The position numbers and the translations under genes are program-made. DNA of 64,000 nucleotides from Jannaschia sp. GRR-S6-38 (GTDB taxonomy: Bacteria; Pseudomonadota; Alphaproteobacteria; Rhodobacterales; Rhodobacteraceae), in NCBI RefSeq assembly GCF_029853695.1, contig NZ_CP122537.1, forward strand, positions 620,001-684,000, written 5' to 3'. Every line of letters starts with the position of its first letter. Within the stretch, counting starts at the first letter, position 1. The notes beneath the pieces were generated by a model. It had not been told where the DNA came from. It made no database searches and saw nothing but the letters and a program-made list of their open reading frames with translations. Shown here in pieces: positions 43,007 through 50,327 of the stretch.

Positions 43007-44302
43007 ATGACCGCCCCCTTCCGCGATGACGGCTTCTTCACCCGCAGCCTGTCCGAGACCGACCCCGAGATCGCCGAGGCCACCCGCCAAGAGCTGGGCC
43101 GCCAGCGCGACGAGATCGAGCTGATCGCCTCCGAGAACATCGTCTCGCGCGCCGTGATGGAAGCGCAGGGCGGCGTGATGACCAACAAATACGCCGAGGG
43201 TTACCCGGGCCGGCGCTATTACGGCGGCTGCCAGTTCGTCGACGTGGCCGAAACGCTGGCCCGCGACCGCGCCAAGCAGCTGTTTGGCTGCGGCTTCGCA
43301 AACGTGCAGCCCAATTCGGGCAGCCAAGCCAACCAGGGCGTGTTCACCGCGCTGCTGCAGCCCGGCGACACGATCCTCGGCATGTCGCTCGACGCGGGCG
43401 GGCATCTGACGCATGGCGCCAAGCCCAACCAGTCGGGCAAGTGGTTCAACGCCGTGCAATACGGCGTGCGCCAGCAGGACCTGCTGCTCGACTACGACCA
43501 GGTGCAGGAATTGGCGACCGAGCACCGGCCCAAGATGATCATCGCCGGCGGCTCGGCCATCCCGCGGATCATCGACTTCGCCCGCATGCGCGAGATCGCC
43601 GACAGCGTGGGCGCGTACCTTCTGGTCGACATGGCGCATTTCGCGGGGCTCGTCGCCTCGGGCCACTACCCCTCGCCCTTCCCGCACGCCCATGTCGCGA
43701 CCACGACGACGCACAAGACACTGCGGGGCCCGCGCGGCGGGATGATCCTGACGGACGATGCGGAGCTGGCGAAGAAGTTCAACTCGGCCATCTTCCCGGG
43801 CATCCAGGGCGGGCCGCTGATGCATGTCATCGCCGCCAAGGCCGTGGCCTTCGGCGAGGCGCTGCGGCCGGGCTTCAAGGATTACCAGACGCAGGTGATC
43901 TCGAACGCCCGCGCGCTGGCCGACCAGCTGCAGAAGGGCGGGCTCGACATCGTCACGGGCGGGACGGACACGCATCTGATGCTGGTCGATCTGCGGCCCA
44001 AGGGCGTGAAGGGCAACGCGACCGAGGACGCGCTGGGCCGCGCGCATATCACCTGCAACAAGAACGGCATCCCCTTCGACGACGAGAAGCCGATGATCAC
44101 CTCGGGCATCCGCCTGGGCACGCCCGCGGGCACCACCCGCGGCTTCGCCGAGCCGGAGTTCCGCCAGATCGCCGACCTGATCGTCGAGGTGGTGGACGGG
44201 CTGGCGGCGCATGGCGCCGACGGCAATTCCGAGGTCGAGGCGGCGGTGCGCGGGAAGGTCAAGGCGCTGTGCGACCGGTTCCCGATCTACCCCGATCTCT
44301 GA
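43007..44302 (+). CDS. glyA: serine hydroxymethyltransferase
   Basis: 431-residue PLP enzyme interconverting serine and glycine with tetrahydrofolate. The PLP lysine lies in [16 protein letters not shown] (~residue 235). [14 protein letters not shown] and [13 protein letters not shown] are at the N-terminus. The open frame begins further upstream, but the ATG at 43007 has AGGAGA at 42995-43000 and gives the family length. Metabolically it meets the sarcosine oxidase cluster at glycine and methylene-THF, though it is 26 kb away. Confidence 0.98.
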
Positions 44303-44383
44303 GCGTCCCGCACAAGTCGGGGTGACTTCGGGCGGCGTGTTCCACAAGTTGGGGCAACCCGCCCCGACCGCCCGAGGCCCTCG

Positions 44384-45517
44384 ATGACGACCGGATTCTT
44401 CCACGACGAACGCTGCCTCTGGCATGGCGGCGGCAACTACGCGCAGATGGCCCCGGTGGGCGGGCTGGTTCAGCCCATCGCCGGCGGCGGCGGGCTGCCC
44501 GAGGATCCCGAGACCAAGCGGCGGCTGGTGAACCTGATGCGGGTGACCGGCCTGATGAGCGATCTGTCGGAGCGCAGTGCCCCGATGCTGGACCGCGAGG
44601 ACCTGCTGCAGGTCCATCCGGCCGCGTATCTCGACGCGTTCGAGGCGGCCTCTGACGCCGGCGGCGGCGAGCTGGGGCTGCGCGCGCCCTTCGGGCCGGG
44701 CGGCTACGACATCGCGCGACTGTCGGCGGGGCTGGTGAGCGGCGCGCTGGAGGCGGTGCTGCAGGGGGCGCTCGGCAATGCCTACGCCTTGTCGCGCCCG
44801 CCGGGGCATCACTGCACCGCCGACTGGCCGAACGGCTTCTGCCTTCTCGCCAATATCGCGCTGGCGGTGCGCCGCGCGCAGGCGCTGGGGCTCTGCCGCC
44901 GCGTCGCGGTGCTGGACTGGGACGTGCATCACGGCAACGGGACCGAGGCGATCTTCGCCGACGATCCGGAGGTGCTGACCGTCTCGATCCACCAGGCGAA
45001 TAACTACCCGCTCGACACCGGCGGGTTCGAGACGCGGGCGCAGGCCAACCTGAACGTCCCGCTGCCCCCGGGCTGTGGCCATGACAGCTATCTGGAGGCG
45101 ATGGAGCGGCTCGCCCTGCCCGCGATCCGCGCGCACGAACCGGAGGTGATCGTCATCGCCTGCGGGCTGGATGCCGGGGCCTTCGATCCGCTGGGCCGGA
45201 TGCTGGCCCATGCCGGAACCTTCCGCGCGATGACCCGGCAGGTGATGGCGCTGGCCGCCGAGACCTGTGACGGCCGCGTCGTGATGGCGCATGAGGGCGG
45301 CTATTCCGAGGTCTACGTGCCGTTCTGCACCCACGCGATCCTGGAAGAGATGTCGGGCAGCGCGGTCCGGGCCGAGGATCCCTTCGCCGCCACGCTGGCG
45401 CAGCGACAGCCGGAGGCCGATTTCCGCGCCTTCGTCTCGGACCGGATCGGCGCGATGGCGGCGGCCCGCGGCCTGTCGTCCCGCACACCGCGGCATGCAT
45501 TGAAAGCGCGCGATTGA
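44384..45517 (+). CDS. histone deacetylase/acetylpolyamine amidohydrolase family protein
   Basis: 377-residue zinc-dependent deacetylase of the HDAC superfamily. The general-base histidine pair is in RPPGHHCTADWPNGF (~143). Zinc ligands Asp and His are in VLDWDVHHGNGTEAIF (~180). The third ligand region is IACGLDAGAFDPLG (~262), and EGGYSEVY closes the site. In bacteria these enzymes act on acetylated polyamines or small molecules, possibly lysines. It lies 42 bases before the CoA-transferase operon on the same strand and may be cotranscribed. Confidence 0.92.
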   Translation: MTTGFFHDERCLWHGGGNYAQMAPVGGLVQPIAGGGGLPEDPETKRRLVNLMRVTGLMSDLSERSAPMLDREDLLQVHPAAYLDAFEAASDAGGGELGLRAPFGPGGYDIARLSAGLVSGALEAVLQGALGNAYALSRPPGHHCTADWPNGFCLLANIALAVRRAQALGLCRRVAVLDWDVHHGNGTEAIFADDPEVLTVSIHQANNYPLDTGGFETRAQANLNVPLPPGCGHDSYLEAMERLALPAIRAHEPEVIVIACGLDAGAFDPLGRMLAHAGTFRAMTRQVMALAAETCDGRVVMAHEGGYSEVYVPFCTHAILEEMSGSAVRAEDPFAATLAQRQPEADFRAFVSDRIGAMAAARGLSSRTPRHALKARD

Positions 45518-45559
45518 CCGGCTATCGATTTCGTCACGACCGCGACTGAGGAGACAGGG

Positions 45560-46297
45560 ATGAGGAAGGTCTACGGCTCGGCAGCGGATGCGCTGGACGG
45601 GCTCCTCTTCGATGGCATGTTCATCGCCGCGGGCGGCTTCGGCCTGTCCGGCATCCCCGAGCATCTGCTCGAAGCGATCCGCGCGGCGGGCACGAAGGAC
45701 CTGACCTTCGCGTCCAACAACGCCGGCGTGGACGATTTCGGGATCGGCATCCTGCTGCAGACCCGCCAGGTGAAGAAGATGATCTCCTCCTATGTGGGCG
45801 AAAACGCGGAGTTCATGCGCCAGTACCTCTCGGGCGAGCTGGAGCTCGAGTTCAATCCGCAGGGTACCCTGGCCGAGCGGATGCGCGCCGGCGGCTGCGG
45901 CATCCCGGGCTTCTATACAAGGACCGGCGTGGGCACGCAGATCGCCGAGGGCAAGGAGCACAAAGAGTTCCCCACCGGCCCGGACGGCGCGCCCGAAACC
46001 TACATCATGGAGCGCGGCATCGTCGCCGACCTGGCCATCGTGAAGGCGTGGAAGGCGGACACGACTGGCAACCTCGTGTTCCGCAAGACCGCGCGCAACT
46101 TCAACCCGCCGGCCGCGATGTGCGGCAAGGTCTGCGTGGCCGAGGTCGAGGAGATCGTGCAGCCGGGCGAGCTCAACCCCGACCACATCCACCTGCCCGG
46201 CATCTATGTCCACCGCCTGATTCAGGGCGATCACGAGAAGCGGATCGAGAAGGTCACGACCCGCCCCCGCCCGGAGGGCGTGAGCCCTGGCGCCTGA
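45560..46297 (+). CDS. scoA: 3-oxoacid CoA-transferase, subunit A
   Basis: 245-residue alpha subunit of a succinyl-CoA:3-ketoacid (acetoacetate) CoA-transferase used in ketone-body or butanoate metabolism. The signature is DGMFIAAGGFGLSGIPEHLL (~residues 18-37), with CGIPGFYTRTGVGT and NPPAAMCGKVCVAEVEEIV later. SD GAGGAGA precedes the ATG. Subunit B does not follow directly: a 1.0-kb LOV-domain gene sits between them (46392-47387). Confidence 0.96.
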   Translation: MRKVYGSAADALDGLLFDGMFIAAGGFGLSGIPEHLLEAIRAAGTKDLTFASNNAGVDDFGIGILLQTRQVKKMISSYVGENAEFMRQYLSGELELEFNPQGTLAERMRAGGCGIPGFYTRTGVGTQIAEGKEHKEFPTGPDGAPETYIMERGIVADLAIVKAWKADTTGNLVFRKTARNFNPPAAMCGKVCVAEVEEIVQPGELNPDHIHLPGIYVHRLIQGDHEKRIEKVTTRPRPEGVSPGA

Positions 46298-46391
46298 GCG
46301 CACTCCCCCCGGCGGCGGCCCCGCCCGGGCCCGCGAGGTCGAGGGGCTTCGCGCGCTCGATCCGTCCGCGCGCCGCAAGCTCGCCTCGGTC

Positions 46392-47387
46392 ATGGACGAG
46401 GGGGGCGCGCTGGACGGCTTTAGCCGCGTGCGCGTCGCCGTCGTGCTGACCGACGCCCGGGCCGAGGACAATCCGATCGTCTACGTCAATTCCGCCTTCG
46501 AGCAGATGACCGGCTATTCCCGCTCCGCCGTGGTCGGGCGCAATTGCCGCTTCCTACAGGGCGAGAAGACCGACAAGGCCGATGTCGACCGGTTGCGGTC
46601 CGCGCTGAGCGAAGGGCGGGACGTCACGCTCGACATCCTGAACTATCGCGCCGATGGCGAGCCGTTCACCAACCGCGTGATCATTGCTCCGATCTGCGAC
46701 GCCGAGAGCAATCCGATCTACTTCCTGGGCATCCAGAAGGAGGTCTACGCCTCCGAGAAGGAAGAGAGCGGCCCCGGTAGCGATATCCTGATGGCCCTGC
46801 GGGGCCGGGTGCAGGAGGATCTGTCGCTCCTGCTGCAGCAGGTCTCCGAGGTCGGCGAGGACCGCGCGCCCTCCGCCTTCGAGGAAATGAACCGCCGGAT
46901 CGAGTGCCTGCAGCTCGCCTACGAGTCGGTCCGCCTCTCGGACCGGCAGGGAGCGCTGCATCCGGGCATCGATCTCGGGGCGCTGGTCAGCCGGGCCGCG
47001 GCCGCCGTGGCCCATCACGAGGGCCGCCCGGGCGTGCGCTACGTCCAGAGCATCGACCCGATGGACGTGAATCTGGACGCCGCCGTGCGCGTGACGCTCC
47101 TGATGTCGGAAGTCCTGGCGAATGCCTTCCACCACGCCTTCGACCGGATGGATGACGGCTTCGTCGAGTTGCGCCTCAAGCGGCTCGCCGCGGGCGGGCT
47201 GCGCCTGTCGGTCAGCGATGATGGGCTGGGCCTGCCGGCCAACGCCCCCTTCCCCGACCCGAACACCGTCGGCGGACGGCTGGTCAATACGCTCGTGGGC
47301 GGGCTCGACGCCACACTGACGCCCGTGCGCGGCGCGGCGGGCACGGTGGTGATGATCGACGTTCCCGTCGACATGCTCGAAATCTAA
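46392..47387 (+). CDS. LOV-domain sensor with HWE/HisKA_2-like ATPase domain
   Basis: 331-residue predicted cytosolic blue-light sensor. Residues ~14-118 form a LOV domain with the canonical flavin-binding GRNCRFLQG (photoactive Cys52), NYRADGEPFTNRV and FLGIQKEV. Residues ~130-330 resemble an HWE/HisKA_2 histidine kinase: N-box SEVLANAFHHAF (239-250), G-box SDDGLGLP (275-282) and GGRLVNTLVGGL. The expected phosphoacceptor His (HHRVKNxLQ in relatives) is absent; the sequence there is ALRGRVQEDL. The ATG at 46392 has no ribosome-binding site. A CTG at 46287, in frame and preceded by GGAGGG, would add 35 residues. It sits between scoA and scoB, 15 bases before scoB. Confidence 0.88.
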   Translation: MDEGGALDGFSRVRVAVVLTDARAEDNPIVYVNSAFEQMTGYSRSAVVGRNCRFLQGEKTDKADVDRLRSALSEGRDVTLDILNYRADGEPFTNRVIIAPICDAESNPIYFLGIQKEVYASEKEESGPGSDILMALRGRVQEDLSLLLQQVSEVGEDRAPSAFEEMNRRIECLQLAYESVRLSDRQGALHPGIDLGALVSRAAAAVAHHEGRPGVRYVQSIDPMDVNLDAAVRVTLLMSEVLANAFHHAFDRMDDGFVELRLKRLAAGGLRLSVSDDGLGLPANAPFPDPNTVGGRLVNTLVGGLDATLTPVRGAAGTVVMIDVPVDMLEI

Positions 47388-47402
47388 GGAGAACGAGAAC
47401 CC

Positions 47403-48032
47403 ATGCCCTGGGACCGCAACCAGATGGCCGCGCGTGCGGCGCAGGAACTGCAGGACGGCTGGTACGTCAATCTCGGGATCGGGATCCCCACGCTCGTGTC
47501 GAACTACATCCCCGACGGGATCGAGGTGACGCTGCAATCCGAGAACGGCATGCTGGGCATGGGCCCCTTCCCCTATGAGGGCGAAGAGGATGCGGACCTG
47601 ATCAACGCCGGCAAGCAGACGATCACCGAGCTGCCGCACTCGTCCTATTTCGATTCGGCGACCAGCTTCGGCATGATCCGCGGCGGCAAGATCGCGATGG
47701 CGATCCTGGGCGCGATGGAGGTGGCCGAGAACGGCGACCTCGCCAACTGGATGATCCCGGGAAAGCTGGTGAAGGGTATGGGCGGCGCCATGGACCTGGT
47801 CGCGGGCGTGGGCCGGGTGGTCGTGGTGATGGACCACGCCAACAAGCATGGCCAGTCGAAGGTCCTGCGCGAATGCACCCTGCCGCTGACCGGCACCGGC
47901 GTCGTGGACCGCATCATCACCAATCTGGGCGTGCTGGACGTGGTCGAGGGCGGGTTGAAGATCGTCGAGCTGGCCGAGGGCGTCACCGAACAGGCGCTGC
48001 GCGACGTCACCGAAGCGACGCTTGTCGACTGA
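47403..48032 (+). CDS. scoB: 3-oxoacid CoA-transferase, subunit B
   Basis: 209-residue beta subunit. The family signature with the catalytic Glu is [16 protein letters not shown] (~residues 41-56); [22 protein letters not shown] is at ~138-160. It pairs with subunit A at 45560. SD AAGGAGAA lies just before the ATG, 15 bases after the LOV-protein stop, so it is expected to be cotranscribed with the LOV gene. Confidence 0.96.
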
Positions 48033-48156
48033 CCTGCCGGAGGGCGCCCCGCCAGAGGGCGATAATGGCGAGCCGGCCAGGCGTCATCGCGCCCTGCTCC
48101 GTGTAACGGCGCAGGCGCGCGGGCATCCCACCGGGCCGGCGTGACCGGCCGGAAGC

Positions 48157-48996
48157 TCAGCCGCCCATCAGCGACGCATCGAAGACGCAGCCGTCGCCCG
48201 GCATCACGGGCGGGGTGGTGCAGATCAGCCGGGCCACGTTCCACGCGGCCATGACCTTGGGGACATAGGCCCGCGTCTCGGCATAGGGCGGCACGCCGGA
48301 ATGGCGGCGCACGGCGCCCTCGCCCGCGTTGTAGCCCGCGAGCGCAAGGACCGGGTCGTCCCCAAATTCCCGCATCAGCCAGTCGAGATAGGCGACCCCG
48401 CCGCGGATGTTGTCGGAGGGGTTGCGCGTGTCGCGCACGCCGAAGCGGGCCGCCGTCTCGGGGATGAGCTGCATCAGCCCGCTGGCCCCGGCATGGCTGA
48501 CGGCGTCGGTCCGGCCCGACGATTCGACCGAGATGAGGGCGAGGATCAGCGCGGGCGAGACGCGGGTGCCGACCGAATGGCGCAGGATGTCGGGGCCGTG
48601 CCGCTTGGCGATGGCCTGCAGATGCGCCAGCGGCGGCGGGGCGATGCCGCTGCCGGCGGGCGGGCGGGCCGCGACCTGCGCGGCCTTGCGGAAGCGGCCG
48701 GCCTGGCGGGCGATGGCGGGCGAGACGGCGGACCAGAACCACGCCTGCTGCGGCTGGCGCGCCAGGGGCTCGGCCGGAGCGGTGCCCGGCGCGGCGATCT
48801 GCGGCAGATCCGGCAGGGTCGGCCGGGGCGCGGCCGGGCGCGGGGCGCGCGGCTCGATCTGGATGTTGATGCGCTTCACGGCATCCGCCGCCGGCGGGCG
48901 GACACGCTTGAAGGTGAAATCCGCGGCCAGGCCCGGGACGGGCACACAGGTCAGCAAAAGGGCCGCAAGCGCGGCGCCGGAGAGGATCGTGTTCAT
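48157..48996 (-). CDS. lytic murein transglycosylase (SLT domain)
   Basis: 279-residue periplasmic enzyme cleaving peptidoglycan glycan strands. The signal peptide spans 1-24 (ending LAA). A Pro/Ala-rich linker covers ~35-120. The SLT domain at ~125-260 has ALISVESSGRTDAVSHAGA (catalytic Glu), GLMQLIPETAARFGV, NIRGGVAYLDWLM and LALAGYNAGEGAV. Two ATGs are possible (49002, 48996); the second begins the signal peptide directly. It lies near the Tad locus, where a wall-opening role is possible but unproven. Confidence 0.92.
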   Translation of the reverse strand: MNTILSGAALAALLLTCVPVPGLAADFTFKRVRPPAADAVKRINIQIEPRAPRPAAPRPTLPDLPQIAAPGTAPAEPLARQPQQAWFWSAVSPAIARQAGRFRKAAQVAARPPAGSGIAPPPLAHLQAIAKRHGPDILRHSVGTRVSPALILALISVESSGRTDAVSHAGASGLMQLIPETAARFGVRDTRNPSDNIRGGVAYLDWLMREFGDDPVLALAGYNAGEGAVRRHSGVPPYAETRAYVPKVMAAWNVARLICTTPPVMPGDGCVFDASLMGG

Positions 48997-49002
48997 GTGC
49001 AA

Positions 49003-49621
49003 GACTGCTCGGTCTCGTTTTTGATTGCGCCGACCCTGCCACAGAATCGCACCCCGCGGCAGCCCGGACGCGGCGATCCGTGCCCGTGCTGTGACATTCG
49101 CCGCGCTTTCGCCTCGGCTGGACGCGCCTCGCCCCCGCGGCGCCGGCCCGCCGCCCCGTTATCGTTCCCGGAACACGGTCAATTCCTCGGGAAATCGCGA
49201 TTGTCCTCAAATTGAGCCGAACCGGACATGTTTCCGCCCCAATTGGCCGACATACCCCTCATATCGGAAGCGCAACCGGCGATGGCAGACCGCCCCCGCG
49301 CCAACCGATCAACAAGAGGCACCGAGAAACTCGGGCGAGGAACGTGGCGATCGAGCAGGCCCCACCGGAGCTGTTGGCAGGCAGAACCGGAGACAAGAGG
49401 GACACGTCACACTTCCGTCGGTACGAGAACCGAGGGACAGGGGGCCGTGCTGGCAGGCACGGCCCCCGCTTCGGTTAGATTGACGCGAAACGACCGCGGC
49501 ATTTCCGCAAACTCTTCTTAAGGCCGTCGCATTCCCGCCCCCTTTGCCGGGCAAATCAGGTTCATCGAAAGGGCACGCCCGACGATCCGACCAAGACCTG
49601 AACCCAAAAGGGAATGAATCA
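49003..49621. other. 619-base intergenic region before the pilin genes
   Basis: No convincing protein gene: the short open frames here have atypical, Arg/Pro-rich composition and no ribosome-binding site. AT-richer patches near 49170-49260 may contain promoters. A strong hairpin lies at 49441-49467 (GGGGGCCGTGC / GCACGGCCCCC region) followed by GCTTCGGTT. Because it is not behind any recognised plus-strand gene, it may end a small untranslated RNA starting near 49200-49300. The last ~120 bases form the leader of the first pilin gene. Confidence 0.5.
49441..49467 (+). terminator. orphan hairpin terminator
   Basis: A very stable GC-rich stem-loop, with a weakly T-rich 3' side on the plus strand, stands alone in the intergenic region. 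It lies about 155 bases before the first pilin gene. It could end a small RNA or insulate the pilin genes. Confidence 0.5.
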
Positions 49622-49843
49622 ATGCTGAACGCGATCAACACCTTCAAGAACGACGAATCCGGCGCCGTCACCGTCGACTGGGTTGTTCTGACCGCCGCCC
49701 TCGTGGGCCTGGGCCTCGCCGTCATGGGCGTCGTCTCGAAGGGCGTGCAGGACCTGTCGGGCGACATCGAAGGCCAGCTGAAGACCGACATGATTGGCGC
49801 GGGCTTCGGCGCCGCCGGCACCGGTCTCGACCTGTCGAAGTAA
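49622..49843 (+). CDS. short Flp-like pilin, copy 1
   Basis: 73-residue pilin-type protein: leader MLNAINTFKNDESG, presumed cleavage after Gly, then AVTVDWVVLTAALVGLGLAV as the assembly helix and a short hydrophilic tail. Asp sits at +5 and Trp at +6, where classical Flp pilins have Glu-Tyr. The protein is identical to the copy at 50071. It has its own terminator and lies at the head of the Tad locus, so it is the likely main pilus subunit. Confidence 0.85.
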   Translation: MLNAINTFKNDESGAVTVDWVVLTAALVGLGLAVMGVVSKGVQDLSGDIEGQLKTDMIGAGFGAAGTGLDLSK

Positions 49844-49877
49844 GATCTCCGATGCTTCTCCCCGTGGAGAGGTGCAG

Positions 49878-49907: not shown

Positions 49908-50070
49908 CGTTGGCCCGACCGTCCCGCGCGGTTCCCGGGATCACCGCGAACTTACCCTTCCGACGCCGCATTATGGCCCCGAATCTCGGTGAAAAGAGTG
50001 CCATCGCAAGGGCGGGAACGCCCGCCGACGACTGACCTGAACCTACATCTGACTCTCAAGGAATGAACCA

Positions 50071-50292
50071 ATGCTGAACGCGATCAACACCTTCAAGAAC
50101 GACGAATCCGGCGCCGTCACCGTCGACTGGGTTGTCCTGACCGCCGCCCTCGTGGGCCTGGGCCTCGCCGTCATGGGCGTCGTCTCGAAGGGCGTGCAGG
50201 ACCTGTCGGGCGACATCGAAGGCCAGCTGAAGACCGACATGATCGGCGCGGGCTTCGGCGCCGCCGGCACCGGCCTCGACCTGTCGAAGTAA
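50071..50292 (+). CDS. short Flp-like pilin, copy 2
   Basis: 73-residue pilin identical at the protein level to the one encoded at 49622. By eye only three synonymous bases differ across 222. The leader shows CAAGGAATGAACCA before the ATG, close to that of copy 1 (GGGAATGAATCA). A matching terminator follows. Very recent duplication or gene conversion would explain the identity. Confidence 0.85.
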   Translation: MLNAINTFKNDESGAVTVDWVVLTAALVGLGLAVMGVVSKGVQDLSGDIEGQLKTDMIGAGFGAAGTGLDLSK

Positions 50293-50327
50293 GACTTCCC
50301 ACGCCCCTCCTTCGCGGAGCGGCGCAG

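Follow-up and report, generated by a model that had tools for sequence, protein, structure and literature searches.

The window analysed here, a stretch of 64,000 nucleotides from the genome of Jannaschia sp. GRR-S6-38 (3.32 Mb, single contig; NZ_CP122537.1, positions 620,001 to 684,000), carries a LOV photosensor gene between the two subunit genes of a 3-oxoacid CoA-transferase. The gene is very likely an orthologue of ldaP of Dinoroseobacter shibae that controls photosynthesis genes and forms part of a conserved scoA-ldaP-scoB unit; by analogy with LdaP, its product would bind the repressor PpsR. This assignment offers a function that can be tested for a gene named only PAS-domain protein or histidine kinase among the database matches listed, and it widens the LdaP system, so far a matter of one species, to 18 sampled genera. 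A possible origin of LdaP also emerges: an active LOV kinase, already resident in the scoAB operon, would have lost its phosphoacceptor histidine once and then become tied to phototrophs.

Gene order and gene calls

All three genes lie on the forward strand. The first, scoA (45560-46297), encodes 3-oxoacid CoA-transferase subunit A (TIGR02429, 220.9 bits against a cut-off of 128.5; PF01144); it is followed by the LOV-ATPase gene (start at 46287 or 46392, end at 47387), and then by scoB (47403-48032), which encodes subunit B (TIGR02428, 328.3 bits against a cut-off of 243.55). These scores and coordinates confirm the preliminary description, which had placed a LOV gene between scoA and scoB on the same strand, ending 15 bases before scoB. 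The complete GRNCRFLQG photoadduct motif that it reported in the LOV core is present at 46536-46562 (Cys52, numbered from the ATG at 46392). Besides the PAS/LOV domain, the product has a weak HATPase domain that scores below the Pfam cut-off. The closest named matches of the protein are from Jannaschia pohangensis (67% identity) and J. donghaensis (65%), and many of the database matches belong to Jannaschia.

The start at 46287 proposed earlier is plausible, although the codon is CTG and an ATG at 46392 is also possible. The CTG start would overlap the final 11 bases of scoA. It is favoured because the later ATG would drop the segment RRKLASV, whose R-K/R-L-x-x-V pattern occurs in 12 of 13 genus orthologues, because a possible ribosome-binding site GGAGGG (46273-46278) precedes it, and because one relative (L002) has an ATG at the identical offset. 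The database prediction (P0001) is the 331-aa ATG form.

Judged from sequence features, the three genes resemble a single transcription unit. Between the LOV gene and scoB, 26 of the 35 linked loci examined have at most 26 bases (the largest gap is 433), and a scan of 44200-48300 gave neither a terminator-like nor a sigma-70-like site, which is a weak result as few such sites would be expected by chance. Short gaps and the lack of an internal site of these kinds fit the cotranscription of sensor and scoAB suggested in the preliminary description.

Directly ahead of scoA lies a histone-deacetylase-family gene (44384-45517), which is retained in some relatives within the genus and absent in others. 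Further downstream, positions 49611-49861 and 50060-50310 form a 251-base tandem duplication with 96% identity, ahead of genes for RcpC/CpaB (50485) and a secretin (51515). This probably reflects a doubled Flp pilin gene in a Tad pilus locus, the pilin having been called by eye with no Pfam match.

Conservation of the scoA-LOV-scoB arrangement

Within the genus, an orthologue was found in 13 of 20 genomes, including that of the window; the other 12 have 62-70% identity to the window protein, and all 13 genes lie in the order scoA-LOV-scoB. The family sample comprised 394 genomes from 393 genera, of which up to five candidates per genome were scored and 35 genomes were LOV-positive (match at E <= 1e-60). 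The trio is found in 26 of these 35 (24 of 30 loci, then G231 and G334), whereas seven matches lie outside it (G230, G108, G220, G353, G423, G329 and G093). G061, whose match at this threshold lies elsewhere on the contig and which has a second, weaker LOV gene (L167) in scoAB, is not among the 26, and G202 was counted neither as linked nor as unlinked since its contig ends before scoB. The trio is more than chance, because it occurs in all 13 genus orthologues and in the majority of LOV-positive family genomes, and the arrangement is old. The flanks outside the trio vary; the short flanking stretch contains a lytic transglycosylase (SLT) gene in 21 of 35 linked loci, and in the D. shibae locus the upstream neighbour is a gene judged by eye to be topA-like. 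A genus tree of ScoA and ScoB was poorly resolved and is not a basis of the main claim.

That scoA and scoB are otherwise normally adjacent, as had been stated, holds in the sample. Among 27 genomes without an orthologue, scoB was found at E <= 1e-60 in 23, giving 24 loci, and scoA is directly upstream in 22 of them; 21 of these gaps measure -1 to 24 bases and one measures 260. The other two scoB loci (L140, L147) are preceded by GSCFA-like genes. Four longer gaps between scoA and scoB (L145, L164, L166, L171) were searched for traces of a LOV gene, with no convincing match. In G230 the space between scoA and scoB holds two other genes, one of them a GSCFA-family member (L187, 2899-4811, reverse strand), G063 has a similar interruption (L188), and in the genus member G012 genes like those of G230 precede one of two scoB copies (L140); the slot between scoA and scoB therefore takes other genes too.

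The state of the phosphoacceptor histidine, discussed below, was scored in 33 of the 35 LOV-positive family genomes (G202 and G093 were left out, and G061 was scored on L167). Linkage to the sco genes was found in 18 of 19 genomes with a His-less protein and in 9 of 14 with a His-bearing one, G061 being linked by its second LOV gene. The 14 His-bearing genomes were used for counts, and one Fisher test used 16, with G202 and G093 added.

Such long-term linkage, with mostly short gaps and on both sides of the histidine change, is what would be expected if the sensor tuned the CoA-transferase or its operon, light thereby directing carbon flow through ketone bodies, leucine or polyhydroxybutyrate. 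The His-bearing form also resides in scoAB in genomes without pufLM (G192, G091, G315, G213, G334 and G061), so photosynthesis does not explain the placement. We nevertheless consider this reading quite unlikely. In G353, which gives no scoB match at E <= 1e-60, the order is topA-LOV and one small frame separates the pair from SLT; in G230 topA-like and SLT genes flank the LOV gene, and scoA and scoB are found at another place. In both genomes the LOV gene looks like it has stayed at the ancestral site from which scoA and scoB are gone, and G220 also retains topA-LOV. These cases argue that the sensor does not need its neighbours. Where the orthologue is absent, scoA and scoB are for the most part still adjacent. 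No CoA-transferase stands in the published table of enriched LdaP partners, and in the available text of the same paper a term search returned no scoA/scoB, Dshi_1134 or Dshi_1136, the CoA passages listed being without CoA-transferase (PMC10890935). Among the open PMC papers searched we found no report of an operon link between a LOV photosensor and a CoA-transferase, and no mention of Dshi_1133, Dshi_1134, Dshi_1136 or Dshi_1137.

The preliminary description had proposed a light or redox input into ketone-body or polyester metabolism. This is not supported: the characterised orthologue LdaP acts on PpsR and photosynthesis genes, and the presence of the gene tracks phototrophy and PpsR. A direct link of the sensor to ketone-body metabolism is unsupported, and for an LdaP orthologue acting on photosynthesis genes the CoA-transferase genes are probably inherited housemates rather than the target.

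A kinase module without its histidine

A feature overlooked in the preliminary description is that the phosphoacceptor histidine is lost while the ATP pocket is kept. The former H-box at 46797-46823 (forward strand) reads LRGRVQEDL in place of xxHRVKNHL, so that the histidine is replaced by Gly138, and Asp143 stands at position H+5. The N-box MSEVLANAFHHAF (47103-47141, forward strand; Asn244) and the G1 box VSDDGLGLP (47211-47237, forward strand; Asp276 and Gly278) are intact. Of the features that define an EL346-type kinase, the protein thus has both ATP-site boxes and not the histidine, and it scores 148 bits with the NCBIfam model for blue-light-activated histidine kinases (NF052306), below the curated cut-off of 450. 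The genome encodes two more LOV histidine kinases (L213, 2625-3800, forward strand; L214, 2764-3891, reverse strand), each with an intact H-box QHRVKNHL. The predicted structure has a mean pLDDT of 79, with a poor N-terminal LOV part (residues 1-52 mostly below 50) and a confident kinase-like half. Because the phosphoacceptor histidine is lost, the kinase module is, on its residues, unable to run a normal phosphorelay, though it has kept the ATP pocket.

Among 50 LOV proteins compared, 30 are without the histidine. In these 30 the photoactive Cys is present in all, the N-box Asn in 29, and the G1 Asp and Gly in all; positions H, H+3 and H+4 are freely variable, and an Asp stands at H+5 in 28. 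The best 120 of 474 database homologues agree with this pattern: 119 are without the histidine (the exception is P0034), and all 120 share the Cys, the N-box Asn, the G1 Asp and Gly, and an Asp at H+5.

Why a sensor that does not autophosphorylate should keep a near-invariant ATP pocket is a puzzle. The conservation of the pocket and of the H+5 Asp would be accounted for if the protein were still a kinase or an ATP-driven switch with a new acceptor, either another residue or a partner protein, perhaps with a part played by Asp143. This is very unlikely, as LdaP showed no autophosphorylation by 32P or Phos-tag (PMC10890935), and as one His-less protein (L058) has lost the N-box Asn as well, yet keeps the LOV motif and its place in scoAB, and its genome has both PpsR and pufLM. 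That the gene is decaying and functionless in this strain is hardly credible: the free variation at three H-box positions would fit decay, but the gene has no internal stops, it is 62-70% identical to the 12 other genus orthologues, and its LOV and most ATP-site residues are invariant or nearly so.

A tree of the 50 LOV proteins was computed with the H-box columns left out and is unrooted; it leaves out L016-L030, L059-L061, L065 and L067 onward, except L167, L172 and L173 (L059 and L060 are repeats of L004 and L008). All 30 His-less proteins, including the window protein (L001) and L045, form one side of a branch (support 92/98), and the histidine state needs one change in 92% of 200 bootstrap trees. 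We infer from this unrooted tree that the change was a single loss, because the His-bearing forms are ordinary kinases. Linkage to the sco genes is found on both sides of this branch, and for that reason it is probably older than the histidine change.

LdaP, PpsR and comparison with known systems

L045 is Dshi_1135, as placed by published primers: it holds the three distinct primer cores published for that gene, its product is 338 aa long and has C61 and R148, and its neighbours are scoA and scoB, one published Dshi_1135 primer falling within the latter. According to the accessible parts of Pucelik et al. 2024, Dshi_1135 was renamed LdaP, a protein of 338 aa with C61 and with R148 in place of the histidine (PMC10890935). 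LdaP has PpsR as partner and was shown to act in the dark as an antirepressor of PpsR, which represses photosynthesis genes, and an ldaP mutant was complemented in trans by the LOV gene alone (PMC10890935). The pull-down table lists more PpsR peptides for light than for dark (7, 7, 1), and its authors attribute this to an about tenfold lower amount of bait in the dark sample (PMC10890935). Dshi_1135 or LdaP is also named in the available text of PMC4335406 and PMC12654162.

The distribution of the gene agrees with a role of this kind. The genome of the window encodes PpsR (389.7 bits against a cut-off of 275.4), and bchG and pufM are present. In the family sample, the 19 His-less genomes have PpsR in 18 and pufLM in all 19, the PpsR exception being G307, a 77% complete genome that has pufLM, whereas both PpsR and pufLM are found in 6 of the 14 His-bearing genomes. 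These family counts are not independent, as the tree needs only one change of histidine state. Within the genus, PpsR is present in 13 of 13 gene-positive and in 1 of 7 gene-negative genomes. On an RpoB tree of the genus, gene presence and PpsR each change about five times, and among the supported independent pairs an average of 3.8 out of 4 show the two traits going together and none shows them opposed, a sign test too small for significance (median p 0.125). PpsR does not need the LOV gene, since G013 has PpsR and pufLM but no orthologue, and most PpsR-bearing family genomes are without one (166 of 394 have PpsR and 35 are LOV-positive). PpsR-type sites (TGT-N12-ACA) were not found near the locus, and 3 occur in the whole window against 2.58 expected. 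Against the LdaP reading stand G013 and the many other PpsR-bearing genomes without the gene, the approximately 50% identity between the window protein and L045, the histidine of P0034, the lack of a PpsR-type site near the locus, the light-dark difference in the pull-down counts, and the conserved ATP pocket, which a pure LOV-binding model leaves unexplained.

In the mechanism that we propose, the LOV domain would bind FMN and form a cysteinyl adduct in blue light, as the complete motif suggests, and the histidine-kinase module, with its ATP pocket but without its phosphoacceptor, would carry no normal phosphorelay. In the dark the protein would bind PpsR, so that photosynthesis genes are derepressed, and in the light it would not, as in D. 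shibae. It would be made from a scoA-ldaP-scoB transcription unit. The ancestor may have been a normal LOV histidine kinase, probably lodged in scoAB before the histidine was lost. A bolder extension, which we regard as rather unlikely, makes the LdaP clade a two-input sensor: the conserved ATP pocket and the gained Asp at H+5 would read ATP/ADP, as NifL may, the scoAB unit would tie the sensor to ketone-body carbon, and PpsR would be released only when light, energy and carbon agree. Such a sensor would have arisen on the spot, from a LOV kinase of the scoAB unit that gave up its histidine and exchanged a phosphorelay for PpsR as its partner.

For the window protein, the nearest known system is LdaP. 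Both proteins belong to the same His-less clade, have the photoactive Cys and no phosphoacceptor histidine, occupy the place between scoA and scoB, and come from genomes with PpsR and photosynthesis genes (pufLM in D. shibae); they differ in about half of their residues and in the one at the histidine position, which is Arg in LdaP and Gly in the window protein. The function of LdaP has, in the available reports, been tested in D. shibae only. EL346, the LOV histidine kinase of Erythrobacter litoralis (PDB 4R3A), has the same domain order, is the best sequence match (E 6.4e-72) and ranks first among the fold matches of the modelled window protein. Among EL346-like proteins, a subgroup without the histidine was already noted in 2023 by Dikiy et al. 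(PMC10359499), whereas EL346 itself, unlike the window protein, has the phosphoacceptor, H142 (PMC10890935). RT-HK (RT349) of Rubellimicrobium thermophilum, a LOV protein with an HWE/HisKA2 module, is on in the dark and off in the light, and LdaP is likewise dark-active; unlike the window protein, RT-HK is described as a working kinase with a predicted acceptor H152 that signals to PhyR (PMC12148442, PMC10359499).

NifL resembles the window protein in its way of working only: the match to TIGR02938 is weak (51.4 bits, far below the cut-off of 242.45) and does not make it a member, and NifL-NifA stands at rank 25 among the fold matches of the model. NifL combines a flavin-PAS domain with a GHKL module in direct contact with a transcription regulator; it senses redox, binds NifA and may read the ATP/ADP state. 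The AppA-PpsR pair of Cereibacter sphaeroides is like LdaP in that AppA is a blue-light antirepressor of PpsR (PMC10890935), but AppA senses light through a BLUF domain with FAD, where the window protein has a LOV domain predicted to bind FMN.
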